Shown in pieces: positions 7,675 to 26,822 of a stretch of DNA of 27,002 nt. The stretch is from IMG/VR virus record IMGVR_UViG_3300045911_000772, positions 1 to 27,002 of that record; one strand, 5' to 3'. A program made the translations under genes and the position numbers. Position 1 is the stretch's first letter. Every line of letters starts with the position of its first letter. Below the pieces are notes generated by a model, which was not told the origin of the DNA, did no database searches, and saw nothing but the letters and a program-made list of their open reading frames with translations. The DNA is from a virus.

Positions 7675-7692
7675 TACTCCGTTTACTCCATT
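7675..7692. repeat. Arm-type repeat, left end of element B
   Basis: TACTCCGTT followed directly by TACTCCATT and then AAG. It matches the triple repeat at the right end (26640-26666), with the same orientation and 9-base period. It overlaps the stop codon of the integrase gene, the usual place for integrase arm-binding sites. Confidence 0.65.
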
Positions 7693-8839: not shown

Positions 8840-8892
8840 TTTCTTGCCTCTTTCCTGCGCCGAAGGCGTTGACTCTTGGCATGACCCGGATA

Positions 8893-9481: not shown

Positions 9482-9700
9482 TCAGATTCCTTTCGGAGTG
9501 ATGACAACCTGGCGGGGCGACGTGCTGCCGCCGCCCGCCTGTTCGATTTCCTTGTTGATGGTTGTGAGAGCCGCCTGCATCTCCGAGACGCTGCGGTAGG
9601 TCATGGAGCGGCCCTCAAATTCCACGCGCAGCGTTCCGCTGCCGATGGCGGCTATCAGGGCGTCGCGCATGCCCTGGAGTTCGGTGAGCGAGAGGGCCAT
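9482..9700 (-). CDS. gpW-like phage head-tail joining protein
   Basis: A 72-residue protein. The N-terminus (MALSLTELQGMRDALIAAIGSG), followed by TLRVEFEGRSMTYRSVSEMQAAL, matches the lambda gpW-like head-tail joining family, which plugs or extends the portal channel. The ATG at 9700 lies 2 bases after the TAA of the capsid gene, and its stop lies 3 bases before the DUF2190 gene, so all three are one operon. In a satellite this protein would form the interface to a helper tail. Confidence 0.85.
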   Translation of the reverse strand: MALSLTELQGMRDALIAAIGSGTLRVEFEGRSMTYRSVSEMQAALTTINKEIEQAGGGSTSPRQVVITPKGI

Positions 9701-9702
9701 GC

Positions 9703-11448
9703 TTAGGCTCCTGGATTCGCGTAGATGCCCCGGAAGTCCAGCGCGCCCGCGCCGAAATCGAGACGCGCGCGGATCTGGATGCCATCCACTTCAAAGCCTG
9801 CGCGGGTTTCCACCTGGACGCCTTCGCTGCCCGCCAGATAGGCGAACTCGATGCTCGGGAACATCATGGGGTCCGCAGCGACGTACCAGCGCGTGGCCGA
9901 CTTGGCATCGAGCCGCGGATCGACGATGAGCGTGAGCTTGCCGGCGAACGGGTTGACGTTCGCGGCCTGCGCCGGGTAGATGCTGGCGAGGTACTTCTCG
10001 GCGGTGGTTTCCAACTCGGCCGGCACAACCAGGAATTTCCCGGCGATGTCGAGCGGCGTCTTGCCGTCGAGACCTTTCTGCGAGCGCAGAGCGAGCCGCG
10101 CGGCCGCCAGCGTGGTGTCCGAGATCGCGCCGCCGCTCGCGGCGAGGTTGCCATGCGCGGCGTCGAACAACTTCTTGTTGTCCGACATCACCGGGCCCAG
10201 TCCACTGTTGGCGGTGATCAGGTCCGCGATGAACTGCGCCTCGAACTGCGCGGCCGCCGAGGCGAACAGCCGCCCGATGTCGGAGAACGCCGACAGGTTG
10301 TTGTTGACGATGGTCTGGCGGTTGATGCCGAAGATGCGGCCATAGGTGTCGAGCTTGTAGGATTCGCGGCCCTCGGCGATGGTGCCCGATTTGAACTCGC
10401 CGTTCTCGTTCACCTTCATGAGCGTGGGTGCTTGCCCCAACTGGATCGAGTAGCGATTGCGGAAATCGTTGATGGTCGCCTTGCGGCAGATCTGCTTGAT
10501 GGGCGCGGGCGCCTCGGCCATCTGCTCCTGGACCACCTTGTTGGCGACGTCGCCCAGCAGCAACGGAAAATCACTGGTGGAGCGGAGGGCGCGATCCACG
10601 ATGGAGGCGTCCGACAGCCCGATGGTTTCGATGCCACGAATGCGGAGAAGTTCTTCCGCCTGCCGGACCAGGCTGCGGCCAATGAACGGGCGCGCCGCCT
10701 CGCCCGCCTTGTGCGTCGGGTTGATCCTCATGTAGATCGCATCCGCCATGGCGGCGCGCAGGAACAGGGGATCGTCGTACCCGCTTGCCGCCACTACCGG
10801 CTGCGCCGTTCGGATCGGAGGACCAGCGCGGCGCTTCATGGCCTCGAAGGCCTCGGCGCGGGCCTGGTCCAGGGTCAGGTTGCGGGCGATCATGTCGTCG
10901 GCCTGAAGGCCGGCGATCTGGGCGATCACCCGGATTTCGTTTTCGTGGGTCTGCTCCATCGTTGCTCCTCTCACCTTCGCGGCGGGGTCGGCCCCGATCG
11001 CCACGAGGGAAATCTCTTTGCCGGTCCAGGCAGTCGCCACAATCGTGCGCGCGCCTGTGGCCGGATCCTTTTCCACGCGCCGTTGGTTCACCACGTAGCC
11101 GACCGAAATCGACCGGATGATGCCGTCGCGAATGTCATTGAGAATGGCCGCCGCGCGCTCGCTGAACCGGAGCCGGGCAACGCCGCGCTCGCCATCAACC
11201 TGCGCGCTTTCCACCACGCCGAGGATGCTGTTCACGTCCATGCGGTCGTGGGAGTTGAGCACCGGGCCGCCGATCAACTGCGAAAGGTCGACTGCCGTGG
11301 GCGACAGGTCCAGCCGCTCCTGGTAGGGCCCTTCGAGATCGAACCGGCGCACAGGCGCGGTGGTGGCGAAGACCACCTCCACAGTGCGGCGTTCCGGATC
11401 GAACGTGGCCGGCTCGAGCGTGGCCGTGCGGGTAACGAGTTCTTCCAT
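9703..11448 (-). CDS. Prohead protease / major capsid protein fusion (element B)
   Basis: A 581-residue protein. Residues 1-160 are an HK97-type prohead protease with VLNSHDR (H67) and RSISVGY (S115) as likely catalytic residues and KEISLVAIGADP at the end. Residues about 165-581 form the capsid domain (FPLLLGDVANKVV, LMKVNENGEFKSG, GRIFGINRQTIVNNNLSAF, DAAHGNLAASG, ending QIRARLDFGAGALDFRG). It builds the procapsid and matures it. It is homologous to 1448-3538 but lacks that protein's N-terminal ~85-residue domain. The ATG at 11448 is chosen because a near-perfect AAGGAGG site lies 4 to 5 bases upstream; the open frame extends further but through a palindrome. Confidence 0.92.
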   Translation of the reverse strand: MEELVTRTATLEPATFDPERRTVEVVFATTAPVRRFDLEGPYQERLDLSPTAVDLSQLIGGPVLNSHDRMDVNSILGVVESAQVDGERGVARLRFSERAAAILNDIRDGIIRSISVGYVVNQRRVEKDPATGARTIVATAWTGKEISLVAIGADPAAKVRGATMEQTHENEIRVIAQIAGLQADDMIARNLTLDQARAEAFEAMKRRAGPPIRTAQPVVAASGYDDPLFLRAAMADAIYMRINPTHKAGEAARPFIGRSLVRQAEELLRIRGIETIGLSDASIVDRALRSTSDFPLLLGDVANKVVQEQMAEAPAPIKQICRKATINDFRNRYSIQLGQAPTLMKVNENGEFKSGTIAEGRESYKLDTYGRIFGINRQTIVNNNLSAFSDIGRLFASAAAQFEAQFIADLITANSGLGPVMSDNKKLFDAAHGNLAASGGAISDTTLAAARLALRSQKGLDGKTPLDIAGKFLVVPAELETTAEKYLASIYPAQAANVNPFAGKLTLIVDPRLDAKSATRWYVAADPMMFPSIEFAYLAGSEGVQVETRAGFEVDGIQIRARLDFGAGALDFRGIYANPGA

Positions 11449-11478
11449 TTGCCTCCTTGTGATGGTTGGAAGTCGGCT

Positions 11479-11533
11479 ATCTTCGGAATTTCCGAAGATG
11501 CTGTTTGGGCGCATCTGAGGGATTTCCTCAGAT
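11479..11533. repeat. Pair of hairpins between portal and capsid genes
   Basis: Two adjacent inverted repeats. The first (11479-11499) has arms ATCTTCGGAA and TTCCGAAGAT around T and is identical to 4186-4206. The second (11513-11533) has arms ATCTGAGG and CCTCAGAT around GATTT and contains the portal stop codon. Neither is followed by a T-run, so they are more likely mRNA processing or stabilising structures, or protein-binding palindromes, than terminators. They sit just before the strong ribosome-binding site of the capsid gene. Confidence 0.75.
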
Positions 11534-12916
11534 GGCGGCCGGGTTGCCTTGCTGGGTGACCTTGCGAGGGTCGGAGTCCAACACGATGCCGGCGGCGTCG
11601 GCCGCCGCGTTGCCTGCCGCGATCTGCGCGTCCACCTCGGCCAGGTCATAGCCGAGCGACGCTACTGCCATCTCCCGCGAAATGAGTCCGGCGCGGATCG
11701 CCCGCACCATGGCGTCCACCTCGCGTTGCGGATCGGTCATCTGCATGGCAGGCGGCACCCAGGAGATGTTGTCCAGGTACTCCTGAACGCCGCCGTCCAC
11801 AGGAGGCAGCGCGCCGCGCAGGATCTCGAGTTCGAGCCAGCGCTGGAACACCGGGCGGCAGAGCATGTGGATGAACTGCCATTGCAGGGCGTCAATGTAC
11901 TTGCGAAGCTCGATCCGCCCCACGCGCGCCGAACTGTAGCTTGTGTCCGAGAGGTCGCCGGTGACCACGTCGTAGGGCAGCCCAAGACCGCTGGCGATGA
12001 GCCGCAGCTGCGTCTTGGCGAAGTCCGAGTAGCCCGCGGTCTCGGGGGGATCTGAGAACTCCATGGACTCGCCGGGAGAAAGACGTTGGATCGTGCCCGG
12101 CTCCAGGCTGGCGGTCCATGCGCTGTCCTCGGCCCTGCTCGCGCCGAGCGGGTTTTCGTTCGGTGTCGTGATGAAGCCGGTGAGCAACGCGCCGGTCTTC
12201 TGCTTGACGAGTGTCGCGCGGTCGAACTGGTCCAGGTCGTTCAGCCGCCCAAGGATCGCCATCAGTTCCGTCACGCCACGAAGCTGGCCGGGCGTCTTGG
12301 GCCGGAAGATGTGCAATACTTCGAACGACGGAATGCGGATGCTCCGCGGTAGGCGGCCCGGCTGCCCGGGATGCCACTCGTAGATGTAGTAAGCCGAGCG
12401 GCGTGCGCCCGCGAACTCGATCCCGGCGATCACGTTGTCCCGCGTGATCGTGGTGTCGATGAACTCGGCTGGCAGCAATTGCAGCCGCAGCACGCCGTCG
12501 TTGTCCGTGAGCATCCGGACGAAAACCTCGCCATCGACGAACATCGACCTGGCGGCGAGGGCTTGCTGCCCGTACCAGTTCAGCATCCCGTCCGCGTCGG
12601 AAACTTCGGTCCAACGGTTCCACCGGTTGAGGAGCAGGCCCTTGAGCGCGGCGTCTCCAATCTTCGGCAGCAATGTGATGCCCGGACCGATCACGTTGTC
12701 GACGAAGGCCTGCGCCGCTCGCGCCGCGACGGCGTTGTTCGCCACCAGGTAACGAGCCTGGTTCCGCAGCAGCGGACTCGGCGCGACGCGGCTGTAGTCG
12801 GGCACAGGGTTGTTCCACAGCCCGATGCTGCGCCGCTCGCGCGCAAGGTCGGCCGCGGCAGAGCGCACCTCGTCATTCCGCCCTGCGAAGCGGTTCTTGA
12901 AGATCCAATGGAGCAT
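11528..12916 (-). CDS. Phage portal protein, lambda type
   Basis: A 462-residue portal of the lambda gpB-like family, the dodecameric channel for DNA entry at the capsid vertex. Typical features are the N-terminal YSRVAPSPLLRNQARYLVANNAVAARAAQAFVDNVIGPGITL, the middle SAYYIYEWHPGQPG and VLHIFRPKTPGQLRGVTELM, and the C-terminal GLPYDVVTGDLSDTSYSSARVGRIELRKYID. The length is near the family norm. The ATG at 12916 lies 3 bases after the stop of the preceding small gene. Together with the GpA-type terminase it makes a complete packaging motor for element B. Confidence 0.93.
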   Translation of the reverse strand: MLHWIFKNRFAGRNDEVRSAAADLARERRSIGLWNNPVPDYSRVAPSPLLRNQARYLVANNAVAARAAQAFVDNVIGPGITLLPKIGDAALKGLLLNRWNRWTEVSDADGMLNWYGQQALAARSMFVDGEVFVRMLTDNDGVLRLQLLPAEFIDTTITRDNVIAGIEFAGARRSAYYIYEWHPGQPGRLPRSIRIPSFEVLHIFRPKTPGQLRGVTELMAILGRLNDLDQFDRATLVKQKTGALLTGFITTPNENPLGASRAEDSAWTASLEPGTIQRLSPGESMEFSDPPETAGYSDFAKTQLRLIASGLGLPYDVVTGDLSDTSYSSARVGRIELRKYIDALQWQFIHMLCRPVFQRWLELEILRGALPPVDGGVQEYLDNISWVPPAMQMTDPQREVDAMVRAIRAGLISREMAVASLGYDLAEVDAQIAAGNAAADAAGIVLDSDPRKVTQQGNPAAI

Positions 12917-12919
12917 TGG

Positions 12920-13294
12920 CTATTGCTTGAAGTGGATGGTGTTCATCTGGCCTCCAACCCCGCTTTTCGCCCGCGCTGGCTGTTGCGGCCACGTCTTTGC
13001 GCCCTTAAGTACTCGGTTCAGCTCGACATCGCGTGCGATCTGGGCGCTCTCGCGAAGGTCCGCCTTTATCTGCCTCTCGCAACCGAACCGTTCCGGCCGG
13101 TAGCGGACGCCCTCTGGTTTCACGTACCGGATGCGGCTGTGATTGCCTACGCCGACGTAGCCGGTGAGAATGATCCTGGTCGCAACCTCCACACCTGAGG
13201 TTGACAGGCGAACCCGTCCCGAATAGTCCACCACCTCGACTGGCGTTGTCTGCCTGCGCAGGATCTCCTCCAGTTGTTCTCCACAGAATTGCAT
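12920..13294 (-). CDS. Small hypothetical protein upstream of portal
   Basis: A 124-residue protein of unrecognised family. The sequence starts MQFCGEQLEEILRRQ and has a beta-rich core (PVEVVDYSGRVRLSTSG, ATRIILTGYVGVGNHSRIRYV) and a basic C-terminus. A GGGAGA ribosome-binding site lies about 9 bases before the ATG at 13294; a GTG two codons earlier is possible. Its slot between terminase and portal is where lambda-like phages keep small head-completion proteins, but no gpW signature is visible here. It could instead belong with the MerR-like gene just upstream. Confidence 0.55.
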   Translation of the reverse strand: MQFCGEQLEEILRRQTTPVEVVDYSGRVRLSTSGVEVATRIILTGYVGVGNHSRIRYVKPEGVRYRPERFGCERQIKADLRESAQIARDVELNRVLKGAKTWPQQPARAKSGVGGQMNTIHFKQ

Positions 13295-13317
13295 GGGCAC
13301 ATTTCTCCCAATGGTGG

Positions 13318-13345: not shown

Positions 13346-13897
13346 TTACGAACGCGATTGAGCCGACTGTTCCTGTAGCAGGCGCTCAACCTCGAGCAAG
13401 ACAGGGTGTACAACGCCCATGAGGTCGATGATCAACATGACGGTGTCGCCCTTTGGCGGGCGCATCTGCGTTTTTCGTTCTTCAGTGAAATCCTTCTTGC
13501 GGATCGTCCAAGGACGTTGGGTGGTGTAGAACTTGCCGTGCTTGTCTTTGCCGATTGCGACCCAGAAGGATTCGTACTCCGGGAATTCGCCTGTGCGCTC
13601 ATTTCTAAGCCACTTCGTAGTGTCCAGTGCCTCTGCTTGAAACATCCGATCGAGGGCGTCCGCGATTTCGGCTGCCAAAGAGACAGGAAGACCCCACTCG
13701 GTGACGCGGCCCATGACGGTTAACGAGATGATGTTCTTCAGGGAGTAAAATCGCCGCTGACCGTGGCCGGGGTTCTTCTCCGATGCCGGCGTGATGAGTC
13801 CGCGATTTACCCAAGTCTGGATAGTAGCCATGGTCAGGCCAGTCGCCCGCATCACTTCGGCGTTCACGAACTGCGGGTCGTTCAGACTGATCAACAT
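13346..13897 (-). CDS. MerR-like helix-turn-helix regulator (element B)
   Basis: A 183-residue protein with an N-terminal MerR-type winged helix (residues about 10-75: FVNAEVMRATGLTMATIQTWVNRGLITPA, then a wing with GQRRFYSLKNIISL). Its C-terminal domain is of unknown function (SFWVAIGKDKHGKFYTTQRPWTI, GDTVMLIIDLMGVVHPVLLEVERLL). It is related in layout to the 637-1098 protein of element A. A promoter with a perfect TTGACA and a 9-base-arm palindrome over the -10 region lie directly upstream, so it likely binds there and regulates itself. It stands between the cas operon and the portal operon, so it may set the expression of the head genes downstream. Confidence 0.8.
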   Translation of the reverse strand: MLISLNDPQFVNAEVMRATGLTMATIQTWVNRGLITPASEKNPGHGQRRFYSLKNIISLTVMGRVTEWGLPVSLAAEIADALDRMFQAEALDTTKWLRNERTGEFPEYESFWVAIGKDKHGKFYTTQRPWTIRKKDFTEERKTQMRPPKGDTVMLIIDLMGVVHPVLLEVERLLQEQSAQSRS

Positions 13898-13916: not shown

Positions 13917-13936
13917 CAAGTAGCATGTGCTACTTG
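13917..13936. promoter_or_regulatory. Palindromic operator of the element B MerR-like gene
   Basis: A perfect inverted repeat with arms CAAGTAGCA and TGCTACTTG separated by TG, ending 20 bases upstream of the regulator ATG. It overlaps the proposed -10 box, the position of a repressing or DNA-distorting operator. A dimeric MerR-family protein would be expected to bind such a site. Confidence 0.75.
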
Positions 13937-13950
13937 CTGCGTTCTGTCAA
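13922..13950 (-). promoter_or_regulatory. Promoter of the element B MerR-like gene
   Basis: On the minus strand a perfect -35 box TTGACA (13945-13950) is followed after 17 bases by a weak -10, CATGCT (13922-13927), lying inside the palindrome. A strong -35 with a poor -10 buried in an operator is typical of an activator-dependent or tightly regulated promoter. The rest of the 149-base gap to the csb2 stop holds no further recognised signal and no CRISPR-like repeat. Confidence 0.55.
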
Positions 13951-14046: not shown

Positions 14047-15618
14047 TCACAAAGGTAGAAAAAGGCCATAGCCCTGGTAGCGGCGATCACCGAGGATGAG
14101 GGGACCCCTGACTGGCTCGACGAATTCAAGACGTGCATGGGTGAGCACAGCAGAGTCACCTGGCGTCCGATAGCACTCAGCGCGGCGAGTACTCGGTAAG
14201 AGCGGCGACGGCGTGAGAATCACGGAACAGGAAGCAGCCACATCTTCTGGGATGCAAATGTGACGCAAGCTGGAGCGGAGCAGGTCCGTCCACTCGGCCA
14301 GCCTCCGGAGGTGTCGCTCATTGGCTGACAGTCTGCGCGACCCGTCCGGCGAGTGTGTAGGCACCTTGAATCCGCGCGCAAGCGCGACCGGAATCACAGA
14401 CTGCCAGATCCGGCTGGAACGTATGAACTGTGACCAAACCTTGTCCCGCTCTGGCCGACCCGGAACCTGCAAGAGCTGGTACGCCGATGTCCCCTTCTCG
14501 ATGACCTCTCCGTCCATCGCGGCGCACAACACACGGTAAATCTCATGTGCCACACTCTCGATGCCAGCGGCGGTGTAACCCAAAAGCGCGAAACGCCGGA
14601 CACGACCATCGGCCCTCCCGTGGACGCTGACGGACGGTAATGGCACAAATGCGAGGTGGGGTTGTTCGGTTCGCTTCTCCTCGCCGGGAGGATGCCCCGA
14701 AATCAACTCCTGAGCAAGTTCAGGCTGGTCCCAACGCTCCGACCGGAGAGCAATATCCACAGCCCTCTCTCTGATCAGACTACGCCAGAAACCAACGTTC
14801 TCGGGGTCGCAGGAAAGCGGCAATACGTCAGGGTCGTCAGTAATTGGAACGAGTTGAAACAGTGAAACATGTATCGGAAGCAAGCCCGTGACCGCTTCGC
14901 GCACATAGCCTTGGCGGCTCAGAAACCTGCTCGCCGGCGATCTGCGAGTCCGGGCTGGAACAACCTGAGCATGGTTACGGATCAAGTCATCCGTTGTGCC
15001 CGACTTGGCGACCAAAAGATCAACCTCGTAGCCTTGGCTCCTCGGCCACCATTTTTCGTTCTCAACGTCGTTATCCCAGGAAGGGACTTCCCCCAGTAGA
15101 ATTTGGCCCTCGACACGATCCTCGGCGCGCCCGAGATAACGGACCTGCGCCGTCAAATCCCTCAACGTCTGAAACTGCTGTTCAGCAGCTTGTTGGGAAA
15201 CAACGTCTTCCAACTGCCAGGTGTATGTAACTGAGAGCGGGCCGCGTGAACGCCCAACAGCGCGGCGCGGCAGCGTGGGAGCAAGCAGAATGGATGTTCG
15301 CGTCAGATCGGACTTTGCCGGATTGTTCTGCGGGATCGCCAGTCGAAAGCGCGTTGCCGAAACGTCATCTTCGAAAATTGGTGAGGCGATGATTCGCGGA
15401 GGGGGCTGCTTCTCGAGCCAGCGCAGCGCGTCCAACGCATCCTTCGCCAGTTGCTGCTCGTGTCCCTTCGGGATGCCGGTCAAGGCAGCAGCCATTAGCG
15501 CCTGATGCATCCGCGCTGGCGAAGGTGGCCAGTCCAGCACCTCTTTCCGATCCTCAGTCAGCCGGACTCCTTGGTAGCTGTGTGCAACAAAGGTCCAGCG
15601 GAGAACAAGTGCTTTCAT
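14047..15618 (-). CDS. csb2: Csb2, type I-G (I-U) Cas5-Cas6 fusion
   Basis: A 523-residue protein of the GSU0054/Csb2 family, the fused Cas5-Cas6 subunit of type I-G Cascade. The N-terminus (MKALVLRWTFVAHSYQGV, then DWPPSPARMHQALMAAALTG) and the central QVRYLGRAEDRVEGQIL are characteristic. The C-terminus carries the glycine-rich RAMP loop (GPLILGDRRYQGYGLFLPL). Cas5 caps the crRNA 5' handle, and the Cas6 part should process pre-crRNA, although no array lies inside this element. The gene overlaps the csb1 stop (TGATG); an in-frame GTG just before, at 15621, is an alternative start. It is the last gene of the cas operon. Confidence 0.9.
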   Translation of the reverse strand: MKALVLRWTFVAHSYQGVRLTEDRKEVLDWPPSPARMHQALMAAALTGIPKGHEQQLAKDALDALRWLEKQPPPRIIASPIFEDDVSATRFRLAIPQNNPAKSDLTRTSILLAPTLPRRAVGRSRGPLSVTYTWQLEDVVSQQAAEQQFQTLRDLTAQVRYLGRAEDRVEGQILLGEVPSWDNDVENEKWWPRSQGYEVDLLVAKSGTTDDLIRNHAQVVPARTRRSPASRFLSRQGYVREAVTGLLPIHVSLFQLVPITDDPDVLPLSCDPENVGFWRSLIRERAVDIALRSERWDQPELAQELISGHPPGEEKRTEQPHLAFVPLPSVSVHGRADGRVRRFALLGYTAAGIESVAHEIYRVLCAAMDGEVIEKGTSAYQLLQVPGRPERDKVWSQFIRSSRIWQSVIPVALARGFKVPTHSPDGSRRLSANERHLRRLAEWTDLLRSSLRHICIPEDVAASCSVILTPSPLLPSTRRAECYRTPGDSAVLTHARLEFVEPVRGPLILGDRRYQGYGLFLPL

Positions 15619-16919
15619 CACGCCTTCTTTTGCCTGCGCGCAGGCTTCGAAGCACCCCCTTCGGCAGGATTGGCTGGCGGTAGTGTTGCGCCTGTCGCAG
15701 ATGCAACGCTGAAGTCCTCCCTCAGGGACTCCCTCGTGAGAACAAAAGGCCCTGTTTGGTCCGGGATCTCCAGGATACCCTTCGCTTGCTTCGCGACCGC
15801 TATCAGCATGCGGCGATCCTCGTAGAGCTTCTTCAGCGCCTCCTCCTCCGCGTAAGACCCATCGCCTCCTCGGAGTTCTAATTTGCGGGAGATCGTCAGC
15901 AACTCGCAGCCCGAACGCAGCCGGTGGCTACCGGTTAAGCGAGGGTACGCCTCAGCCAGAGCGGCCAGCGCGAAGAGATACCGCCTCGCGGCGTCTGTCT
16001 TTGCTACGTCAGTCTTATTGTCTTTGTCCTGACAATTCAGCCGGGCAATGTCCGTTAGCGAAATCAGCGCCAGACGTTCAATTCTTCCTTTCACAAGGAC
16101 ACCCCCAAGCCCCTCACTAAGTGCGTTGATGTAGCCTCGCTCGGCCATCTTGTCCTGATCTGATTTGTCGGCCGCCGGCTTATCCAGTACCGCTTTGGCG
16201 AACTCGTCGGCGGAGTATGGGCCGCTGTACAGGGCGTGTCGCCGACAGGGAACTACATCGAACGCATCGATCCGCGAAAGCAGGACGCGGGCATGCTTGT
16301 GCTGCGCTTCTTCTGCGCGACTGTCCCAAAAGCCAAAGACGACACTGGTGGGCATCAGTTTCAAAAGCTTCAAGGCATCGCCATTCGCAAACGCGCTGAT
16401 CGCGGTCTTCACATCCTCCTTTTTGTCCGACAGCCGAACGCGAAAGTCAGCTACTCGATGGGGGAGCCGGAGGACGCTGTCTCCACCTCTCTTCTCACTG
16501 GATCGAGGAATCGTCACAGTCGCTTGGGGGACTAATGGCTGGAGGTCCGGGTCGTCGAGGAACGCTTCTTCCATTCGATTTGCCTGCGACTGGGGCGAGT
16601 CTAGCGCGCAACGCTCCGCACTGATGATCTGCTGGCGTTGCACAGTCGTCTTTCCCTTCCCACGAATCGTCTCTTGAACCTGACTGTACACGACGCCAGA
16701 AAGATCATAAACAGGCGGGTCATTATCCCCGGTTCCGGCGTACGATGCGGGGAATACCGGAAAGTCCATTCCGCCCGCGGGTTCCAGCGATTCGAGAACG
16801 CGAATCACTGCTGGTAGTTTTACGGCCGCGCCGGGTTTCCTGGTGTTCACACTCATCAAACGATCAAGTAGCTCGATAGCTTTGCTAAGATCGTCTTCCT
16901 GCACCTGGGATTCGGTCAT
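15618..16919 (-). CDS. csb1: Csb1, type I-G Cas7 backbone subunit
   Basis: A 433-residue protein of the GSU0053/Csb1 (Cas7) family, which forms the helical backbone of the type I-G complex along the crRNA. Diagnostic stretches are VIRVLESLEPAGGMDFPVFPASYAG near residues 40-65, SAERCALDSPQSQANRMEEAFL near 100-125, and RLPHRVADFRVRLS near 150. A C-terminal Lys/Arg-rich tail ends in RRQKKA. The ATG at 16919 is preferred because AGGAG lies about 9 bases before it; an in-frame ATG at 16928 directly abuts that site. The csb3 stop overlaps the ribosome-binding site, so the genes are translationally linked. Confidence 0.92.
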   Translation of the reverse strand: MTESQVQEDDLSKAIELLDRLMSVNTRKPGAAVKLPAVIRVLESLEPAGGMDFPVFPASYAGTGDNDPPVYDLSGVVYSQVQETIRGKGKTTVQRQQIISAERCALDSPQSQANRMEEAFLDDPDLQPLVPQATVTIPRSSEKRGGDSVLRLPHRVADFRVRLSDKKEDVKTAISAFANGDALKLLKLMPTSVVFGFWDSRAEEAQHKHARVLLSRIDAFDVVPCRRHALYSGPYSADEFAKAVLDKPAADKSDQDKMAERGYINALSEGLGGVLVKGRIERLALISLTDIARLNCQDKDNKTDVAKTDAARRYLFALAALAEAYPRLTGSHRLRSGCELLTISRKLELRGGDGSYAEEEALKKLYEDRRMLIAVAKQAKGILEIPDQTGPFVLTRESLREDFSVASATGATLPPANPAEGGASKPARRQKKA

Positions 16920-16931
16920 GATGCGCATCTC

Positions 16932-17738
16932 CTATTTTTGTTCTTCGAGTATGGCCTCCGGGAAAAACCGGTAGGCGGCGCCTTTTCCGTAGGCGGCGCC
17001 GCGGGTTGTGGTCCGATAGCGCCGCGCGGGGAATCCATCAAGCCGCCCTGCAACAGCATAAGGCACTAGGCAAAGTGAGATTGGCTGGAGCCAGATGGAA
17101 TACGAAACTGAGGCCTCACCTACTTGCCATGCTTGAACGGTGGCAAAGAATGAAGCGGTCGCGATGCTCAACAGTTCTATCGCCGGATAGACTGGATCCA
17201 GGTCCCCACTGCCGTCGTCATTGGAGCTGAAGCCGAGGTCGTATGCGTGTGAACCGACACGGCAGTCGAATCCCCAACTCCCGGCGCCACGTGCCAACTG
17301 GCAGAGCCAGGAATTCGTATGAGCCGGCAATAGAAGGCGCTGTTGCTGGTCCCTTAACAGCTTCTCTGGCGTGACCTGCGCTGAGAATGTCTTGAATGGT
17401 GAGGTCTTCTTCTTGCCGCTGGCCTCGGCGAGCAAAATGAAAGGGTTGCAGCCGATTTTGCTGCCGGCCACGAAGGTCCCTTGCTCCGCCGATCCGAAGC
17501 CTGGGACCCAATTCATGCGACGTACAAATCTGTCGGCAGCTTGGAACAAACTTGTCTCGGTAAGAGCCGTTTGCAAGACGAGCCCCTTATCACTCCACCA
17601 ACATTGAGATTCGATCCGCCCGCCGTCAGAAGTTCTTCTCCTCGCGGCAAGGGCAATGAGCGCAACTCCGGAAAGAACATGGGCTAGATTGCGTTCGTCC
17701 AACGGGAAAGACAGTTCAGAGAGGCGATCACTGCTCAT
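16932..17738 (-). CDS. csb3: Csb3, type I-G Cas8-like subunit (GSU0052 type)
   Basis: A 268-residue protein matching the Csb3/GSU0052 subunit by order and sequence style: LDERNLAHVLSGVALIALAARR at the start, then CWWSDKGLVLQTALTETSLFQAA, SKIGCNPFILLAEASGKKKTSPFKTFSAQVTPE, and a C-terminal LWLQPISLCLVPYAVAG-like beta region followed by RYRTTTRGAAYGKGAAYRFFPEA. It is presumed to be the large-subunit equivalent that recognises the target site, although the role is less well defined than for Cas8 of other subtypes. The ATG at 17738 overlaps the end of cas3 by 11 bases (ATGAGCAGTGA). The longer open frame upstream lies in cas3 and is rejected. Gene order cas3-csb3-csb1-csb2 equals the Geobacter sulfurreducens GSU0051-GSU0054 order. 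Confidence 0.85.
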   Translation of the reverse strand: MSSDRLSELSFPLDERNLAHVLSGVALIALAARRRTSDGGRIESQCWWSDKGLVLQTALTETSLFQAADRFVRRMNWVPGFGSAEQGTFVAGSKIGCNPFILLAEASGKKKTSPFKTFSAQVTPEKLLRDQQQRLLLPAHTNSWLCQLARGAGSWGFDCRVGSHAYDLGFSSNDDGSGDLDPVYPAIELLSIATASFFATVQAWQVGEASVSYSIWLQPISLCLVPYAVAGRLDGFPARRYRTTTRGAAYGKGAAYRFFPEAILEEQK

Positions 17739-20700
17739 CGGCGTCGTCCTCTTCATCCGCTTGGCTCGCCGCAGTATCGGCTGCCTTGACCAATGCCTCC
17801 AGATAGGCCAGCCGCCAGGGGCCAAGCAGACGCTGGAGTCGGGAAAAACGCTCGGCTGATTCAACGCGTATCGCGGATTGCCGCTGCTTCGAGTACGGAT
17901 GTTTCTCCAAGATGCGGTCGGCAAGCCAAGGCCTAACGTGCCCGTGGTGAGATGCGATCAAGTGACGCCAAAGATCGATCCAGATCTGCTTCTCAGAATC
18001 GGACAGTGCTGGCTCCAGGTTGGGCTGCTGTCCGCCAGTCAACTTAAGAAGTGACTCCCACTCGTGCCGGAATCCGCCCATCCTTGCTGGCTGTACAACC
18101 AGTGGCTTCGCCACAGGGTTCTTAAGATCCCTGTTCCCCATTGCCGACTGCCATTTGGGGTTGTTCTTCCCGAGGTCATGCACGCTCGATGCCTCGGAGA
18201 TCAGAGAACGTAGGAATTCGCTTCTTGGGGCTACGGTCTCCGCTATCCGGCCGCCCACGTCTTCCGCGCGTCTCAGATGTTCGTTTAAGAGCTGCGGTGA
18301 TTGCACCAGAGTCTTCACTTTAAGGTAGACAAATCGAAATTTGGCGGTACCGACGTCGAATGTTTGACTCACGCACTGCCGCCATACTTTACCCGCGGGC
18401 GGGTCGGGAGGTCGGTCACCAACAGAAGCACAGCCTGGTGGGTGCGATTCTCCAGCTGTGTTTACCGGCTCGATTCGCGAAGCTCCGTCTCCTGAAGTCA
18501 GCCGATGGTCACCAGGGTGGACTTCTTTCACTTGCCGCCAGTAGGAAGGACGTTGGGTCGACACTCCCCCCAGCACGTCACAAGTGGCAACATCGCCTGT
18601 ATCCTCCAGTAGCTCGTTTAGACTATTGTGGCCTCTCGCCAATGTCGGCAGAACCAGGATCGCATCTGGCTTCAGGATGAACCCGCTCTTGCGGTCCAAC
18701 CCGACCCGCCATTCCTCACCGTCAAAAACGGCGACTGGAATCTTCGACGCCTCCGAGGATTCGAGCCACGTCCTGGCCGCGGACATAGGAATATAGTGGA
18801 GTTCGGCGCGGCAGGGCGGAAACATCGTGAAAATCTCTTCGACACGGCCCCTGGTGGATTGCTCCTCTGATTCGTCTTCATGTTCAGGGCGGGACGCTGC
18901 TAGCCCGTCCATCTCCAGCCGGAAAGCGACACCGATCAGAGGAGTGCCTTCCTCGTCGGGTAGGATGCCGTAGAGAAACGGATGCACAGGCGTGAAGTAG
19001 TTTTGCGGGCTGGTGGTCGCCGACCAGTGCTCTATTTGAGAGGAGGTAAGGACCGGCACGGCGACGGGCCCGCCCGTTACAGGAGCCAGCCTGTGCTTTA
19101 GCCAAGAGGTGGGTGAGCGAGCATCAAGGACGCCTCGTGTGCCGAAACGAGCCCCCAGTAAAACTCTTTGCGTGGCCGCACTAATGAGTTCGGCTGGATC
19201 AAGTCGTTTTGGCTTTTTACCTCCGTTTCCCCCAGCCTCGATTTCATCGGCATTGTCTGCTCCTGCGCCGTTCGCATTAACTCCGGCTTGCTTCGAAGTG
19301 GCCATGTTCCAGTGAGCACCCACCAAGAACGAAGCCGAAGGGACATTTTCGTTCGGCAGTTCGGCGCGCAATGCTCGCGCCAACTGGATGATCCGCCGTC
19401 GAACGTCGCGCGGTGGCACATCCGGCTTGACGAAGATGGTCATGGTAGGCGCTTCGCACTGCCCAGCACGAAACCGTTGGCTGAGCCTACCGCGACGGTC
19501 CAACCGCCCAAGCCTCTGAAGCAAAGTGGGCAGCGAGGCAAAATCGCAGAGAACCGCTGATGCATCCGCATCAAGGCCAACTTCTGCCGCAGCAGTTCCG
19601 ACCAGAAAGACGCTGTCCTTGATTTCGCCTGCTTCTTCGCCTTCCTCAGAAGGACGGAAGCGTATGAATACGGGGTGTTTCTCGATCCGATCACGTTCGT
19701 ATCCGCGAAGTCGCCCCGTAATTGTCAGAACCCGGTCCTTGAACCGCTTCTGGAGATGTTTTTTGATTTTGTTCGCGACGCCTGGCTCGCGTACGAACAC
19801 AGCAATGTTCTGGTTCGCCCGGCCGAGCGCTGCGGCCTCCGCCCCAATTACTTGGTCGAATTTCTCGTCCGCGGTAATCCATCTGATCTTCACCTGTCGT
19901 GTTTGTGCGGCTATGAGACGATCAAGGAGGCGTGGATCGTCTTCGTCGTCAGGAATGAGTGTGAAGATCGAATCTGCGTTGGGTGGTGGCAGGGACGGAG
20001 TCGCGGACAGCTCCGTGGCCCAGAAAGAAAGGTGTTCGAACGTAGCGGAAAGCGCCGCAGGAATATCTCGGTCGGCCTGTTCAATGAGCCGGCGCGCTTG
20101 ACGGAGCGTAAGCAGGAACTCCGGTACGAGGTGGGCTTCGTCTACACAGATCCAAGCATCTACTCCCAGGAGAGCAGCCTGCAAAGGTCGGCTCCATTTG
20201 CCGAGACCGTACCCTTGGAACAGGAGCCGGCTGCCGATCTGGTCAACTGTACCGATAATGAGTTGTGGCACCGAGGGGACAACAGACCACTCTCGGTCAT
20301 CCACCAATTGACCCCGAAGTTGGACAACCCGAAAAATATCCGCTGGGTCTCCGCTTAAGGACACCAGTCCCTTCCGTAGTTCAGAGAGCTCGCAATTGCC
20401 TGCCGAGAGCTTGGCCTCAAGCTGGCGGGCCAAGCGAAAAACCTGCTGCACAAGCACGCGCCGATTCACGACCCAAACGAGGCGCCGAGGGACCGGCTTC
20501 CGCGAACCCCGTTCCAGCCCATACCATGCCAACGCCAGGATCCAGATAACGGTGACGTCGGTTTTGGCGGCCCCAGTGGGGAGGTCAATAAGGTTTGGAT
20601 GCCATCCCTCCGTGAGTCTCTCGAACAGCCTATGCATCCATCTCATGGGAGGCTGATCTCGCAGCGCGGTGTAATACCATTCGAAGAACTGCTCGGGACT

Positions 20701-20739
20701 TTGAGGCGAGAACTCGGTGGGTTGGATGTCCGTTTGCAT
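17728..20739 (-). CDS. cas3: Cas3 helicase-nuclease, type I-G, with C-terminal HD domain
   Basis: A 1003-residue Cas3 of the GSU0051 type. The helicase comes first: P-loop LPTGAAKT (53-60), DEAH (200-203), LSATP (244-248), motif V around 381-394 and motif VI QRLGRLDRRGR (408-418). The HD nuclease is C-terminal, as usual in this subtype: H854-D855 in SSVHDLGKNN, H892 in FRHEW, H931-H932 in SHHGH and D988 in KAADTAAS, all present. The oddity is Ala at residue 58, where Gly normally precedes the P-loop Lys; the codon reads clearly as GCC. The ATG at 20739 is 20 bases after the large terminase stop, with only a weak GAG site. The earlier open frame overlaps terminase and is rejected. GC is visibly lower than in the terminase gene. 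Confidence 0.93.
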   Translation of the reverse strand: MQTDIQPTEFSPQSPEQFFEWYYTALRDQPPMRWMHRLFERLTEGWHPNLIDLPTGAAKTDVTVIWILALAWYGLERGSRKPVPRRLVWVVNRRVLVQQVFRLARQLEAKLSAGNCELSELRKGLVSLSGDPADIFRVVQLRGQLVDDREWSVVPSVPQLIIGTVDQIGSRLLFQGYGLGKWSRPLQAALLGVDAWICVDEAHLVPEFLLTLRQARRLIEQADRDIPAALSATFEHLSFWATELSATPSLPPPNADSIFTLIPDDEDDPRLLDRLIAAQTRQVKIRWITADEKFDQVIGAEAAALGRANQNIAVFVREPGVANKIKKHLQKRFKDRVLTITGRLRGYERDRIEKHPVFIRFRPSEEGEEAGEIKDSVFLVGTAAAEVGLDADASAVLCDFASLPTLLQRLGRLDRRGRLSQRFRAGQCEAPTMTIFVKPDVPPRDVRRRIIQLARALRAELPNENVPSASFLVGAHWNMATSKQAGVNANGAGADNADEIEAGGNGGKKPKRLDPAELISAATQRVLLGARFGTRGVLDARSPTSWLKHRLAPVTGGPVAVPVLTSSQIEHWSATTSPQNYFTPVHPFLYGILPDEEGTPLIGVAFRLEMDGLAASRPEHEDESEEQSTRGRVEEIFTMFPPCRAELHYIPMSAARTWLESSEASKIPVAVFDGEEWRVGLDRKSGFILKPDAILVLPTLARGHNSLNELLEDTGDVATCDVLGGVSTQRPSYWRQVKEVHPGDHRLTSGDGASRIEPVNTAGESHPPGCASVGDRPPDPPAGKVWRQCVSQTFDVGTAKFRFVYLKVKTLVQSPQLLNEHLRRAEDVGGRIAETVAPRSEFLRSLISEASSVHDLGKNNPKWQSAMGNRDLKNPVAKPLVVQPARMGGFRHEWESLLKLTGGQQPNLEPALSDSEKQIWIDLWRHLIASHHGHVRPWLADRILEKHPYSKQRQSAIRVESAERFSRLQRLLGPWRLAYLEALVKAADTAASQADEEDDADEQ

Positions 20740-20759
20740 CTCGATGGTAAATCGGTATT

Positions 20760-22559
20760 TTACTCCTGCATCCACTGGCTGCGTGCTACCCGCGGCACAA
20801 GCGGAGGCGTAAGTCGCGCAGCTAGGGCATCGATACGGTCTGCCTCTCGCTCCAACGACAACCCCATCGAGATGAGCGCCTGGAGTGCGGCGAAGGCGTA
20901 GACGCGGCAGTCGAAGGCCTCGCCGCGCGTTGCCTTCTTCCGCCGCCACTCCCGTACTGGTGCGCCGCGTGAGTAGGTCGTCACCAGGATCTCGGACAAC
21001 AGTTGCTCGAAGTATTCCTGGCTCCGATCCGCCGGGAAGTGGCAGAAGCCGGGAGAGGGCTCGACGATCTTCAGGCGTCCGTAGACCGTCGACTTGGCGC
21101 TGTCCACGCCCACGGTGTAGAGTAACGTCCCGTTCTTGCGGCTCGGGCGTTTCGGCCACACCGGCAGTGGCCCGGCCTTGCCCTTGATCGCGAAGACCCG
21201 CTGGTGGAACCGGCCGCGCGCAAACTCGTAGACCTGCTGCGTGTGAAAGCCCGAGTCGATACAGCATGCCGAGACTGGCAGCGTGATGCCACGCTCATGC
21301 GTCCACGGCTGCGCCAGCAGTTCGTCGAGAGACTGCCATACAGCCGGCGCGGAGGGGTCGCCCGGCAACACCTGGTATGCGACGGACCAGGACTCCTCGC
21401 CGCGGCCCCAGCCGACGAGTTCCACTTCGAGCCGGTCGGCCTGCACGTCCACGCCGCACGTCAGCAACGCCACCCCGCCTGGCAACTTCGGTATGTAATG
21501 CTCGCGGCGCGCGATCAACGTGGCGAGGTCCACCGAGGTATGCGCTTCGTCGTCCCACGGCTCGCCGAGCGCAGTGTTGATGAATGTGCGAAGCGTCTCT
21601 GGGCTTTCCTTGGCCTCCAGAAACTCGGCGGCAGTCTCGCCCCACTCTTTCCACGGCGAGTACAACTGGTTGATCCAGAAACCCGCGACCTTCGAGCCAG
21701 GATTCGCCGGCCGCCACTCACCGCACGCCAGCATCCACGGCTTCTTGAACGCCGGGATGTGGACAGCGCAATGCTCGCAGAGATACGCCGCGCCCTCCGG
21801 ATCAGTGTCTGGCCACTCTACGCTCGGCCAGCGAAGGATCTGGAAGTGCCCACACTCTGGGCACGGCACCCAGTAGCTCTGCCGGTTCGATTTCAGCCAG
21901 GCCGCCTCCACCCGGGATGCGGCCTTCACCGTCGGCGAGGAAACCATCACAATCTTACGATTCCAGAACGTCGCCGTGCGCTTGATAGCCAGCGCCACCG
22001 GGTCGCCTTCAGTACCAGCGCTGGCTGGATAGCGGTCTACCTCGTCGAGCAGGACATACCGGATGGGCCGGGCGGCGAGGCCTGCCGCAGAGTTCGCGCC
22101 GGCGATAGTGATGTGGCCTCCGGGGAAACGCTTGTGGAGCGTGGTGTTGTTTGCTTCGCGCGTCCGGACGTCCGAAACCTTGCCACGCAAGCACGGCGTG
22201 TCGCGCAGCATGGGCGCGAAGCGGTCCTTGGACCATGACTTGCCGTCCTCGACGCGCGGCTGTACGACCAGCAGCGGGCCCGGATCGCGGTCCACGATGT
22301 AGCCGACGAAGTTGTTGAGGATCTCGGTCTTGCCGATCTGGGAACTGCTCATCACCACGACCCGCTCGTACGGGCTGTAAGGAGAGAGCGCGTCCATGAT
22401 GGCGCGCTGGTAGGGCGCGCGGTCGGTGCGCCAGTCGCCGCGCTCGGCCGACGCCTCCGACGATAGACGGCGGTTCTGGTCAGCCCATTCGGAGACCGTC
22501 TGGCGCGGCGACGGCTCAAGCGAATCCGCCAGGCGCGTCACGCAGACCTCAAGCCCCAT
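20760..22559 (-). CDS. terL: Large terminase subunit, GpA family
   Basis: A 599-residue packaging ATPase-nuclease of the lambda gpA-like family. ATPase motifs: SSSQIGKTE (71-79) as Walker A and YVLLDEVDRYP with D172-E173 as Walker B. A zinc-binding insert has CPEC (232-235) and CEHC (260-263). The C-terminal nuclease region carries CGVDVQADRLEVELVGWG and later ACCIDSGFHTQQV, GVDSAKSTVY and a closing KATRGEAFDCRVYAFAA. The length fits the family. It overlaps the small terminase gene by 11 bases. Directly after its stop comes cas3 rather than the usual small head gene and portal, so the cas operon is inserted in the packaging cluster. Confidence 0.95.
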   Translation of the reverse strand: MGLEVCVTRLADSLEPSPRQTVSEWADQNRRLSSEASAERGDWRTDRAPYQRAIMDALSPYSPYERVVVMSSSQIGKTEILNNFVGYIVDRDPGPLLVVQPRVEDGKSWSKDRFAPMLRDTPCLRGKVSDVRTREANNTTLHKRFPGGHITIAGANSAAGLAARPIRYVLLDEVDRYPASAGTEGDPVALAIKRTATFWNRKIVMVSSPTVKAASRVEAAWLKSNRQSYWVPCPECGHFQILRWPSVEWPDTDPEGAAYLCEHCAVHIPAFKKPWMLACGEWRPANPGSKVAGFWINQLYSPWKEWGETAAEFLEAKESPETLRTFINTALGEPWDDEAHTSVDLATLIARREHYIPKLPGGVALLTCGVDVQADRLEVELVGWGRGEESWSVAYQVLPGDPSAPAVWQSLDELLAQPWTHERGITLPVSACCIDSGFHTQQVYEFARGRFHQRVFAIKGKAGPLPVWPKRPSRKNGTLLYTVGVDSAKSTVYGRLKIVEPSPGFCHFPADRSQEYFEQLLSEILVTTYSRGAPVREWRRKKATRGEAFDCRVYAFAALQALISMGLSLEREADRIDALAARLTPPLVPRVARSQWMQE

Positions 22560-23016
22560 GGCGGATGTCCTCGGCGAGGCCCTTCAGAATGACGGTCACC
22601 TCGGTGTCGAGGATCTCGCGGACCCGGCGCACGTCAGTCTCGGCAGCCAATTGCGGCGCAAGCTTGCTGGCGATCCCGAGCACGCGGTCACGGATCTGGC
22701 GGCCCAGCGTGTACCACTTGATGCTGACTTCGTCAGTCGGGACGAGCTTCCCAATCCGCGTCTCGTACTCCAGCTTCTTCAGCTTCGCGGAGAACACCTC
22801 GCGCGCCAGCCGGGCCTGCGCAAACGTGGTCGGCTGCTGGCTGACGGGCGCCTCGTCGGGTCTGTCATCCAGCACGGCGTCCGACGCGGTGGCATCCGCC
22901 ATGCGCCCGCGCATAACCAGGATGCCCGCCTTCGCCAGTTTGCCGATGTACTGCGGGCTCTTGCCGCGATGCCGGGCGTATTGCGCCTGGGTCATAAGGA
23001 TGGAGTTGTTGTTCAT
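22549..23016 (-). CDS. terS: Small terminase subunit (Nu1-like)
   Basis: A 155-residue DNA-recognition subunit of the packaging motor. It has an N-terminal helix-turn-helix (MTQAQYARHRGKSPQYIGKLAKAGILV), a linker, a coiled-coil-rich middle (FAQARLAREVFSAKLKKLEYETRIGKLVP) and a C-terminal helical part (IRDRVLGIASKLAPQLAAETDVRRVREILDTEV). This pattern is typical of phage Nu1-like small terminases. The start is taken at the ATG at 23016; an in-frame TTG at 23028 is possible. It is divergent from the toxin-antitoxin operon, whose probable promoter lies in the same short gap. Confidence 0.85.
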   Translation of the reverse strand: MNNNSILMTQAQYARHRGKSPQYIGKLAKAGILVMRGRMADATASDAVLDDRPDEAPVSQQPTTFAQARLAREVFSAKLKKLEYETRIGKLVPTDEVSIKWYTLGRQIRDRVLGIASKLAPQLAAETDVRRVREILDTEVTVILKGLAEDIRHGA

Positions 23017-23036
23017 TGGTGTCGGCAACCTGCTGA

Positions 23037-23306: not shown

Positions 23307-23309
23307 TCG

Positions 23310-23840: not shown

Positions 23841-23966
23841 GGTGACGGGTTCGAGCCTGTGACGGCTTGTGACCGGTTTTTCTCAAAAACGGTCCTTATA
23901 CGCGCGGGGCGAAGAATGTTTTGAGAAAAAGGCATCACAACTCGTCACGCCGCAAACCCGTCACAC
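23841..23966. other. Probable replication origin of element B (iterons plus inverted repeat)
   Basis: The gene-free stretch 23727-23960 holds GTGAC-type repeats: GGTGACGGG (23841-23849), TGTGACGG (23858-23865) and TGTGACCGG (23868-23876). In opposite orientation are CGTCACG (23943-23949) and a CCGTCAC site at the primase stop. Between the two groups is an AT-rich inverted repeat, TTTTTCTCAAAA (23877-23888) and TTTTGAGAAAAA (23919-23930). As in element A it abuts the 3' end of the primase-helicase gene and shares the GTCAC core. An origin is the best explanation; a bidirectional terminator between convergent genes is the alternative for the inverted repeat alone. Confidence 0.6.
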
Positions 23967-26330
23967 CTCTTCTCCCGAGGCGCCGCCTTGGGCCAGCAGG
24001 GCGATGCCGGCGTAGACCGTGCCGTGCCGCCGGTGTTCCTTCGCGAAGCCCCGATCCTTCAGCCGCCTGCCGAAGAGCGTCTCCGTGATGGCATTCTCGC
24101 CCGCGCCCTCGGCCCACGTGCGGTAGCACTCGTACAGTTGGCGGGCTTTGCCGGTGAACGAGTCGGCGACCACGCAGCACTCCTCGATGAAGCGCCCGAG
24201 TTGGTCGTTCTCCGCGCGCCAGTCGTCGTTGGCGGCGACAACTTCGGGAGGCTTTTCGAGGCCATGCTGCCGCCACAGCTTCGCACCTTCCACCGCCCAG
24301 GCGAGAATGCCCTCGGCTTCTGCCAAGAGCTTCCTGGGCAGGCCTTTGTCGATCTCCTCGGGCGGGATCGTGACCGTGAACGGGATCGGGTGCAGGCGAT
24401 TGAAGGTGGCCTGGTCGTCCGCGGCGCGGATCGTGGGCTTGGAGTTGGTGTCCATCCACAACTTGTGCGTCTCGGGGAACTCGATGGGATTCTCGTACTT
24501 GCGCGTAGCTTTGATCTTGCCCATGCCTTGCGTGATGCGCTTCAGCTTGCCTTGTGAGAGGCGTTGGCCCTCCTCCGTTTCGGACGTCATCACGAAGCGC
24601 GCGCCGCGAAGGTCGGCGAGATCCGCCTGGGTGTTGTTGCTCTCCTGGCGCGCCATCAACGTGTCCACCTGGAGCAGGACGGAATACTCCTCAAGCAACA
24701 GCAGGAACGTCGAGAGCAAAGTGGTCTTCCCGTTGTTGCCCTTTCCGAATGGGACGAAGACGGCTTTCTCCTCCGTGGTGCCGGTCAGCGAGTACCCGAG
24801 CGCGCGCTGCAAATAGTTGACCATGCGCTCGGCGCGGTCGAGTTCCGGTTCGGAGGCGTCCGGATGGTTGCCCATCATGCGCGCGACGACGGTCTGGAAC
24901 AGCGGGCAGCCGGCCTGAGGATCGTAATTGTGATGGACGAGCTTCGTGATGAAGTAGGCTTGGTTGTGCGGCGCCAGTTCGCCGGTGCGAAGGTCCAGAG
25001 TGCCGTTGAGGAAGTTGATCAGGAACGGGTGCGTGTCGAGTTCGCCGGGCGTGATCACCAGCTCGCATTCCGCCATTGTCAGGAGGTTGGCTATCCGGCG
25101 CGCGTCGAGCGACACGTAAGCGAAGTGCTGGTGATCTTCGTCCTCGGCGTGGGTGGCTTCCGCGAGGTAGTCGAGCATGGCCTGCTTTGCCAGGCGGCGC
25201 GCCGCACCCTTGTCGTCCACGGCCCAACGGCGGTCGTCCCAGACGAGCCATTTCTGCAACGCTGGACAGTACCGAAGCCGGTCACCGAATTTCAGAATCA
25301 GGCGGTCGGCATTGCCGGTGTCGTTGCGCAGGAACTCCAGGAGGGGGAACTTCCGGGAGACGACTTCCGCCGAATCTGGCGGAAGTGAAGGTGCCGGGCG
25401 AGCGGAAGGCAACTCGACGGACTTCACGGTCTCAACCAACGACCGCAATTGCTCCGCGGTACCTCCCCCTTCGATCCAATCCCAAAGGTCGCCCTTCGAC
25501 GGCAAACCAGGCAAGCGAATGATCTTCACTTCTGGAACATGCGGGGCGAGGGCCTTGGACACGACTTCACCATGGGTCTCACCCTTCTGGTCGCGGTCGA
25601 CGATGACGCGGAGGCGCTTGCCGACAAGCGGTCTCGTGTAGTCGGCGCACCACTTGCCCTCACCGTCGGGCGAGCAGGTGGTGACGATGTCCAATTCGGC
25701 CGCGCCGCGGTCGGCGGCCTTCTCGCCGTTCACAATGAAGACCTCCTCCGCGGCCGCGAGCGTGTTCAAGCGGTAGAGGATCGGATGCTTACCGGCCTTC
25801 TTCCGCGCGACCCAGCCGCCGTTCGAGGAGAGCGCATACTGCCGGAAGGTCTTGTCGTTCTGCTTGTCGATGAAGCGGACCTTGACGTAGGAGAAGCGCC
25901 CATCGGCTTCGAAGTACGGGTAGATGGCGCTGTGCTTCCAGCTCTGCTCAGCCTCGACCTTCTCAATCCGCCGGCGCAGATACTCGTGCTGCCAACCCGG
26001 CAGCCCCCACTTCATCTGCGGCTCCGGTTCGATGGGGCGTAGGTCCGGCCTGCCGACGATGCGGCGCACCTCGCGTGCGGCGTCGGGAAAGTCGGCGCTC
26101 GACAGTGCCATCTCCAGGTCGTAAATCGACCCGCCGCGTCCGCACTGGCTGTGGCACATCCAGAGGCCGGTCTCGGCGTTGACAGAGAAGTTGTCGCCCT
26201 CGCCGTCGTGGATAGGACACGGCGCGCGCCACTCGCGCCCCCGTTGGTTCAGGCGCGGCAGCCTGGCGGCGTAGTAGGCCGAGATCTCCACGGGCGTCAG
26301 GTCGCCATGGGAATGGACAGCCGTGCTCAC
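23961..26330 (-). CDS. CHC2-Toprim-D5 primase-helicase, replication protein of element B
   Basis: A 789-residue multidomain protein. Residues 30-70 form a CHC2-type zinc ribbon (C38, H41, C59, C63). Residues about 195-250 are a Toprim domain (FIVNGEKAADRG with E203; VIVDRDQKG with D245 and D247). Residues about 330-500 are D5-like (NFLNGTLDLRTGELAPHN). An SF3 helicase follows, with Walker A GKGNNGKTT (529-537), then a C-terminal segment ending in a winged-helix-like region. It should prime and unwind the element's DNA at the nearby origin. It starts with GTG at 26330, overlapping the upstream stop (GTGA), with AAGGAG before it. The D5 half is homologous to the element A protein; the primase half is unrelated. 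Confidence 0.93.
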   Translation of the reverse strand: MSTAVHSHGDLTPVEISAYYAARLPRLNQRGREWRAPCPIHDGEGDNFSVNAETGLWMCHSQCGRGGSIYDLEMALSSADFPDAAREVRRIVGRPDLRPIEPEPQMKWGLPGWQHEYLRRRIEKVEAEQSWKHSAIYPYFEADGRFSYVKVRFIDKQNDKTFRQYALSSNGGWVARKKAGKHPILYRLNTLAAAEEVFIVNGEKAADRGAAELDIVTTCSPDGEGKWCADYTRPLVGKRLRVIVDRDQKGETHGEVVSKALAPHVPEVKIIRLPGLPSKGDLWDWIEGGGTAEQLRSLVETVKSVELPSARPAPSLPPDSAEVVSRKFPLLEFLRNDTGNADRLILKFGDRLRYCPALQKWLVWDDRRWAVDDKGAARRLAKQAMLDYLAEATHAEDEDHQHFAYVSLDARRIANLLTMAECELVITPGELDTHPFLINFLNGTLDLRTGELAPHNQAYFITKLVHHNYDPQAGCPLFQTVVARMMGNHPDASEPELDRAERMVNYLQRALGYSLTGTTEEKAVFVPFGKGNNGKTTLLSTFLLLLEEYSVLLQVDTLMARQESNNTQADLADLRGARFVMTSETEEGQRLSQGKLKRITQGMGKIKATRKYENPIEFPETHKLWMDTNSKPTIRAADDQATFNRLHPIPFTVTIPPEEIDKGLPRKLLAEAEGILAWAVEGAKLWRQHGLEKPPEVVAANDDWRAENDQLGRFIEECCVVADSFTGKARQLYECYRTWAEGAGENAITETLFGRRLKDRGFAKEHRRHGTVYAGIALLAQGGASGEEV

Positions 26331-26767: not shown

Positions 26768-26815
<48 letters not shown>

Positions 26816-26822
26816 CTTCTCT

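Follow-up and report, generated by a model that had tools for sequence, protein, structure and literature searches.

The window, by which we mean the whole stretch of DNA that was analysed (the 27,002-base IMG/VR viral record IMGVR_UViG_3300045911_000772, positions 1 to 27,002), contains a 19.2 kb element that is bracketed by 48-nt direct repeats at 7593–7640 and 26768–26815 (96% identical). The genes relevant here (terS-terL, the cas genes and the head module) are all located on the minus strand, and the features of the element are as follows:

7593..7640 (+), att direct repeat at the integrase-side end of the element; 3′ end of a tRNA-Gly gene
7691..8899 (-), tyrosine integrase (Phage_integrase 5.8e-14)
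8893..9111 (-), excisionase-like HTH protein (phrog_66 5.8e-8)
9128..9478 (-), head decoration protein (phrog_122 4.3e-33)
9482..9700 (-), head-tail adaptor (phrog_2545 1.7e-16)
9703..11649 (-), fused protease/major capsid protein (Phage_capsid_4 6.4e-55, Peptidase_S78 8.5e-4)
11528..12916 (-), portal, lambda type (Phage_portal_2 2.1e-85; TIGR01539 2e-82)
12920..13300 (-), connector-position protein, conserved in relatives; right flank of the hotspot
13346..13897 (-), MerR-like regulator, first gene of the head module (MerR_1 2e-6; L005 copy 86% identical)
13922..13950 (-), promoter-like sequence TTGACA-17-CATGCT of the head module, conserved and coinciding in part with a palindrome; putative function
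14047..15621 (-), csb2 (Cas5-Cas6 fusion), the type I-G signature gene (TIGR02165 1.3e-48; PADLOC Cas56g 2.3e-52)
15618..16928 (-), cas7g (csb1) (PF09617 1.9e-26; TIGR02570 1.1e-20)
16932..17735 (-), cas8g of the small type (PADLOC Cas8g E 0.0045; blastp 1.3e-8 to the cas8-position protein of L147)
17728..20739 (-), cas3g helicase-nuclease (TIGR02621 6e-130, 435.6 bits against a cut-off of 400)
20740..20762 (-), terL stop codon and 20-nt gap to cas3, where homology to relatives breaks; left edge of the hotspot
20760..22559 (-), terL, GpA family (GpA_nuclease 1e-93; GpA_ATPase 1.1e-89, also given as 1e-89)
22549..23028 (-), terS (phrog_57 5.2e-31)
23961..26330 (-), primase/helicase, P4 family (TIGR01613 5.8e-70)
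26768..26815 (+), att direct repeat at the primase-side end, second of the 48-nt pair

The att repeat corresponds to the 3′ end of tRNA-Gly(ccc), as the same 45 nt overlap tRNA-Gly(ccc) in L089; ARAGORN detected no tRNA in the window, which is expected if only the 3′ end of the tRNA-Gly gene is present. The protease/capsid fusion may in fact start at an internal ATG near 11514. A family-model search found no match for the connector-position protein, which is 40–44% identical in the relatives L002 and L004, 75% in L005 and 96% in L214. The listed genes account for 96% of the element and include neither tail genes nor cas1, cas2 or cas4, and the relatives have a similar run of portal, capsid, adaptor, decoration, xis and int genes in which tail genes are absent.

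The gene set of a capsid-forming PICI (cf-PICI) is therefore complete (integrase and excisionase-like gene, P4-type primase, terS-terL, portal and capsid of its own, and att repeats at a tRNA gene, without tail genes), and on this gene content the element resembles a tailless, capsid-encoding phage satellite. Most cf-PICIs described so far come from Enterobacteriaceae and Bacillota groups (PMC10803314); the satellite studied here differs from them in its probable Acidobacteriota host, its GpA-type terminase, lambda-type portal and protease-capsid fusion, and its size (19.2 kb versus an average of 14 kb). As a cf-PICI-like element, it would presumably be induced by a helper phage and obtain its tails from it. 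Among named genomes, the nearest relative was found in a Bryobacterales MAG, its terL being 95% identical, which points to Bryobacterales (Acidobacteriota) as the host group.

Positions 1–7592 hold part of another element of comparable class, arranged in tandem, which has the att copy at 7593 in common with the satellite and includes a primase (7186–4775), a protease-capsid fusion (3556–1448) and small regulators, with the rest lying outside the window. An identical 22-nt palindrome, ATCTTCGGAATTTCCGAAGATG, is present in both tandem elements (4186–4207 and 11479–11500) as well as in L002 and L004, and is possibly a regulator site common to these satellites. Next to the primase gene, inverted repeats of 30 nt separated by 30 nt (23859–23948) form a candidate replication origin or terminator, while the edge of an apparent ISL3-type transposase gene, recognised by eye, lies just past the att site (26822–27002).

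The terL-cas3 junction and the cargo interval

The terL ORF (22559..20760) ends with a stop codon at 20762–20760 and the cas3 ATG is located at 20739, and hence cas3 starts 20 bases past the terL stop, exactly as the original prediction had it. The four cas genes were likewise correctly described as tightly coupled, with an 8 nt overlap of cas3 and cas8, a 3 nt gap between cas8 and cas7 and a 4 nt overlap of cas7 and csb2, and the ribosome binding site of cas3 is indeed weak: a Shine-Dalgarno sequence is missing at normal spacing, and an AGGAG motif is located ~23 nt upstream of the start, inside the last codons of terL. A scan for σ70-like promoters on the minus strand upstream of cas3 gave none, but this is weak evidence since this stricter scan also missed the promoter-like site that the head module has. 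Under relaxed settings, terL gave a single promoter-like pair, versus a mean of 3.97 in shuffled sequence. Given the shared strand, the 20-nt spacing and the unrecognised promoter, read-through or translational coupling from terL into cas3 is plausible.

The cas operon had further been proposed to be spliced into a packaging/head gene cluster, which is right for the gene order; in terms of transcription, however, the cargo seems to separate two units, terS-terL on one side and the head genes on the other. The promoter-like site of the head module is kept in L005 as TTGACA-18-TATGCT, with a better -10 sequence, and with this conserved site of its own the head module could be expressed without read-through from terL.

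A comparison of gene order among relatives, named as a check in the original prediction, was made with four viral relatives (L002–L005) with 90–92% identical terL, and showed other cargo in place of the cas genes. Homology of all four to the window ends at 20759–20764, that is, at the terL stop. In the three relatives that reach this far, it is regained either at 13003, which lies within the connector gene, or at 13951, ahead of the regulator. Over the relatives with 90–95% identical terL, the pattern is one of homology lost at the terL stop and recovered at the connector or its regulator. The GC content at third codon positions (GC3) is 61–64% in the cas genes versus 82–86% in terL, terS, primase and portal, and together with the break in homology this shows that the exact placement at the terL stop is not due to chance. 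The interval from terL to the head genes is 6.4–7.8 kb in relatives with 90–92% identical terL, versus ~0.35–1.2 kb in most of the more distant terminase relatives.

The contents of this interval differ between relatives. L002 has a STAND NTPase-domain protein that matches mad8 weakly, as well as a DUF3489 protein, and L004 has a methyltransferase-like protein (type II model match 5e-150) together with an HNH-like gene and an IS3-like transposase, both recognised by eye. A DUF5615 protein and WG-repeat genes are present in L005, and L082 contains a DUF3489 protein (identified by its resemblance to the one in L002) as well as a helicase that has an MTES_1575 nuclease domain and matches the PDC-S37/Mokosh models. 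Two further relatives, found through their portal, have an Eco57I-type methyltransferase (L215) and a type I specificity fragment (L216) at the same flank. The cargo adjoining terL is antiparallel to terL in four of five relatives (L002, L003, L004 and L082) and mixed in L005. Close relatives thus have different cassettes between one and the same pair of conserved genes, and the interval between terL and the regulator-connector genes is a cargo hotspot of this family that mostly holds defence-like genes.

Published satellite hotspots are also flanked by conserved genes (psu-int in P4, gpA-gpQ in P2 and prim-fis in PICMI; PMC9122126, PMC10803314), so a hotspot within core genes is usual. The hotspot described here is like the antiviral hotspots of P2, P4 and PICMI in its high-turnover, mostly defence-like cargo between two core genes, but differs in its site, as terL and the regulator-connector genes lie within the packaging/head order, and in that one of its cassettes is a multi-gene CRISPR effector. 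This site was not among the published hotspots that we found. A vapBC-like gene pair, recognised by eye on the plus strand between the primase and terS (23058–23726), lies where relatives also differ, and the breaks in homology at 23739 and 23016 suggest that it marks a second, smaller cargo site.

The original prediction had set the position of the operon against that of typical defence cargo, and had read from it an action during packaging. The first contrast is not borne out, as relatives hold other, mostly defence-like cargo in the same interval and mostly on the reverse strand. Since those other cassettes face the opposite way, the position also says little about the timing of cargo action, and a junction that is a cargo hotspot provides no evidence for a packaging-linked CRISPR function. 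A late function, in which the operon would be co-transcribed with terL on induction and act in packaging or helper infection, possibly against helper or competitor DNA, is in our view unlikely: it would fit with terL and cas3 being on the same strand, 20 nt apart and without a recognised promoter between them, and re-initiation after terL is plausible, but the same point carries unrelated, mostly opposite-strand cargo in other members, the head genes are preceded by a conserved promoter-like site of their own, and the element has no array or spacer to supply a packaging-related target.

Composition and conserved residues of the type I-G operon

The effector set of a type I-G system is present together in one operon, in the order cas3-cas8-cas7-csb2, with the signature protein Csb2 scoring 166 bits against a cut-off of 45 for TIGR02165. 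The start of cas8g is likely to be at 17735 rather than at the 17924 given by the ORF caller, and although its product is only weakly recognised by the model, homology to the cas8-position genes of L147, L143 and L149 supports its identity. The AlphaFold model of Cas8 was poor (pLDDT 38.8), and that of Csb2 was of medium quality (65) with weak matches to other RAMP/Cas5/Cas6 proteins; sequence searches of the PDB did not retrieve I-G Cascade entries. The operon shares the cas3, cas8g, cas7g (csb1) and csb2 signature with the Thioalkalivibrio and chromosomal Bryobacterales I-G systems, but differs from these in lacking cas4-cas1, cas2 and an array, in its small Cas8, and in the Walker A sequence TGAAKT of Cas3. 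There was no CRISPR array in the window, where a hidden single repeat or mini-array was also sought and rejected; the I-G repeat end had zero matches with fewer than three mismatches in the window, and the number of matches with three mismatches was at chance level.

In the published I-G system of Thioalkalivibrio, crRNA is made by Csb2, and plasmids as well as phage are subject to interference by Cascade acting with Cas3 (PMC9638904). The published active site residue of Thioalkalivibrio Csb2 is H503 (PMC9638904), and the satellite Csb2 retains all residues that are invariant in the alignment, including H495. As H495 is kept in nearly all copies, while the histidine of the C-terminal GRH motif is variable (Y or F in array-linked loci), the active site of Csb2 is likely to be intact. 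The HD and DEAH residues and those of motif VI are conserved in the satellite Cas3, whereas motif I (near 20575) reads TGAAKT versus GKT in 43/43 aligned Cas3g copies, some of which are from overlapping loci. With a glycine preceding the lysine in all of these 43 copies, this sequence suggests that full DNA degradation by the satellite Cas3 may be impaired.

The motif I change, unique among the aligned copies, the absence of the array and of cas1/2/4, and the low identity of the Cas proteins to all relatives (about 25–39% over most of each protein) could also indicate a decaying passenger, in which a complete I-G locus was captured, has lost its array and adaptation genes, and is now eroding in function. 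We consider this improbable, as the four ORFs are full-length and without frameshifts, their tight coupling is preserved, and so are the HD, DEAH and motif VI residues of Cas3 and the invariant residues of Csb2, H495 among them. An effector that does not cleave or only nicks, with Cas3 nicking without unwinding and the complex blocking or marking targets such as host or rival genes, is very unlikely: the Thioalkalivibrio Walker A mutant K39A, which bound and nicked its target without degrading it (PMC9638904), and the intact HD site beside TGAAKT make it conceivable, but the Walker A lysine itself is present in the satellite Cas3, where the change is from glycine to alanine, and TGAAKT was read from a single contig and may be a base-calling error.

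Host arrays and a proposed role for the operon

Chromosomal type I-G systems are frequent in Bryobacterales, with cas7g in 42/257 genomes, and most of the sampled loci share the gene order of the satellite operon. All of the 16 sampled genomes with chromosomal I-G loci contained cas1, often beside the I-G genes. Repeats in the arrays of these loci are 36 nt long; their hairpin varies, whereas their end, GGCCYCATTGAAGC, is constant, and the repeat-end pattern was found in 91/257 genomes, ~40 of which had five or more matches (counted from the table). As this repeat end is common in Bryobacterales genomes, an effector without an array could find crRNAs in many hosts. A search with 261 spacers of sampled host I-G arrays against the window and its relatives gave zero full-length hits among the matches listed, these being short (15–20 nt) and at chance level.

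Functioning in trans has precedents, as a type IV-A system acquires spacers through the host I-E system (PMC11656645), and a provirus carries an adaptation-less I-B system (PMC12596717). The latter, from a haloarchaeal provirus, resembles the satellite operon in that an integrated virus carries the interference genes and lacks cas1/2/4, and its reliance on another system for adaptation was proposed; it differs in having its own spacers, whereas the operon described here has no array, is of type I-G, and is located on a satellite rather than a virus.

Our preferred reading, to which we assign a probability of about 0.6, is that of a cf-PICI-like satellite whose hotspot between terL and the head-module regulator/connector holds an array-less I-G interference operon as cargo, with this operon serving as a mobile defence system that uses host crRNAs and is expressed by read-through. 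The satellite Csb2 would process transcripts of the resident host I-G arrays, and Cascade-Cas3 would then target those phages or rival elements for which the host has matching spacers, with cas expression consisting of basal transcription plus terS-terL read-through that would rise on induction. A more elaborate version, in which a memory-less effector raised together with the packaging genes borrows host crRNAs, and the satellite in the course of its own cycle turns host immune memory on phages or satellites that compete with it, possibly by nicking or blocking because of the altered Cas3 helicase motif, seems rather doubtful to us.

We did not find a description of CRISPR-Cas on a capsid-forming satellite in the open literature, the coverage of which misses many papers. 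In this family of tailless satellites, the CRISPR effector represents one swappable cassette of the hotspot, and, with arrays that share a near-universal repeat end being common in the host order, an I-G module without array and adaptation genes makes such a borrowed CRISPR memory directly testable.

Type I-G modules on other mobile elements

Only one satellite with these cas genes was found, and the collection yielded no close viral relative of Cas3, Cas7 or Csb2. In viral contigs, no relative was detected when single proteins (Cas7, Cas3) or alignments (Cas7, Csb2) served as queries, and the alignment search with Cas3 had a sole match, L152; phage records gave no match, and plasmids gave six distant I-G loci. 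L152 is a prophage-like IMG/VR contig in which an integrase, a WYL regulator and cas7g-csb2-cas3g are located in a row (4138–13057). It is similar to the satellite in having cas7g, csb2 and cas3g on a mobile element, but its gene order differs, and the genes adjoin the WYL regulator and integrase rather than occupying a terL-head slot. Two other loci (L134 and L135) belong to one 29-kb contig, G005:C11, with decayed phage genes, tail-like genes, a serine recombinase, and a terL remnant that is 83% identical over 109 residues to the satellite terL. This contig, on which cas1 and an array are absent, has a different, csx17-like I-G operon after the phage genes. Considering L152 and G005:C11, I-G effectors appear to occur on several kinds of phage-like elements.
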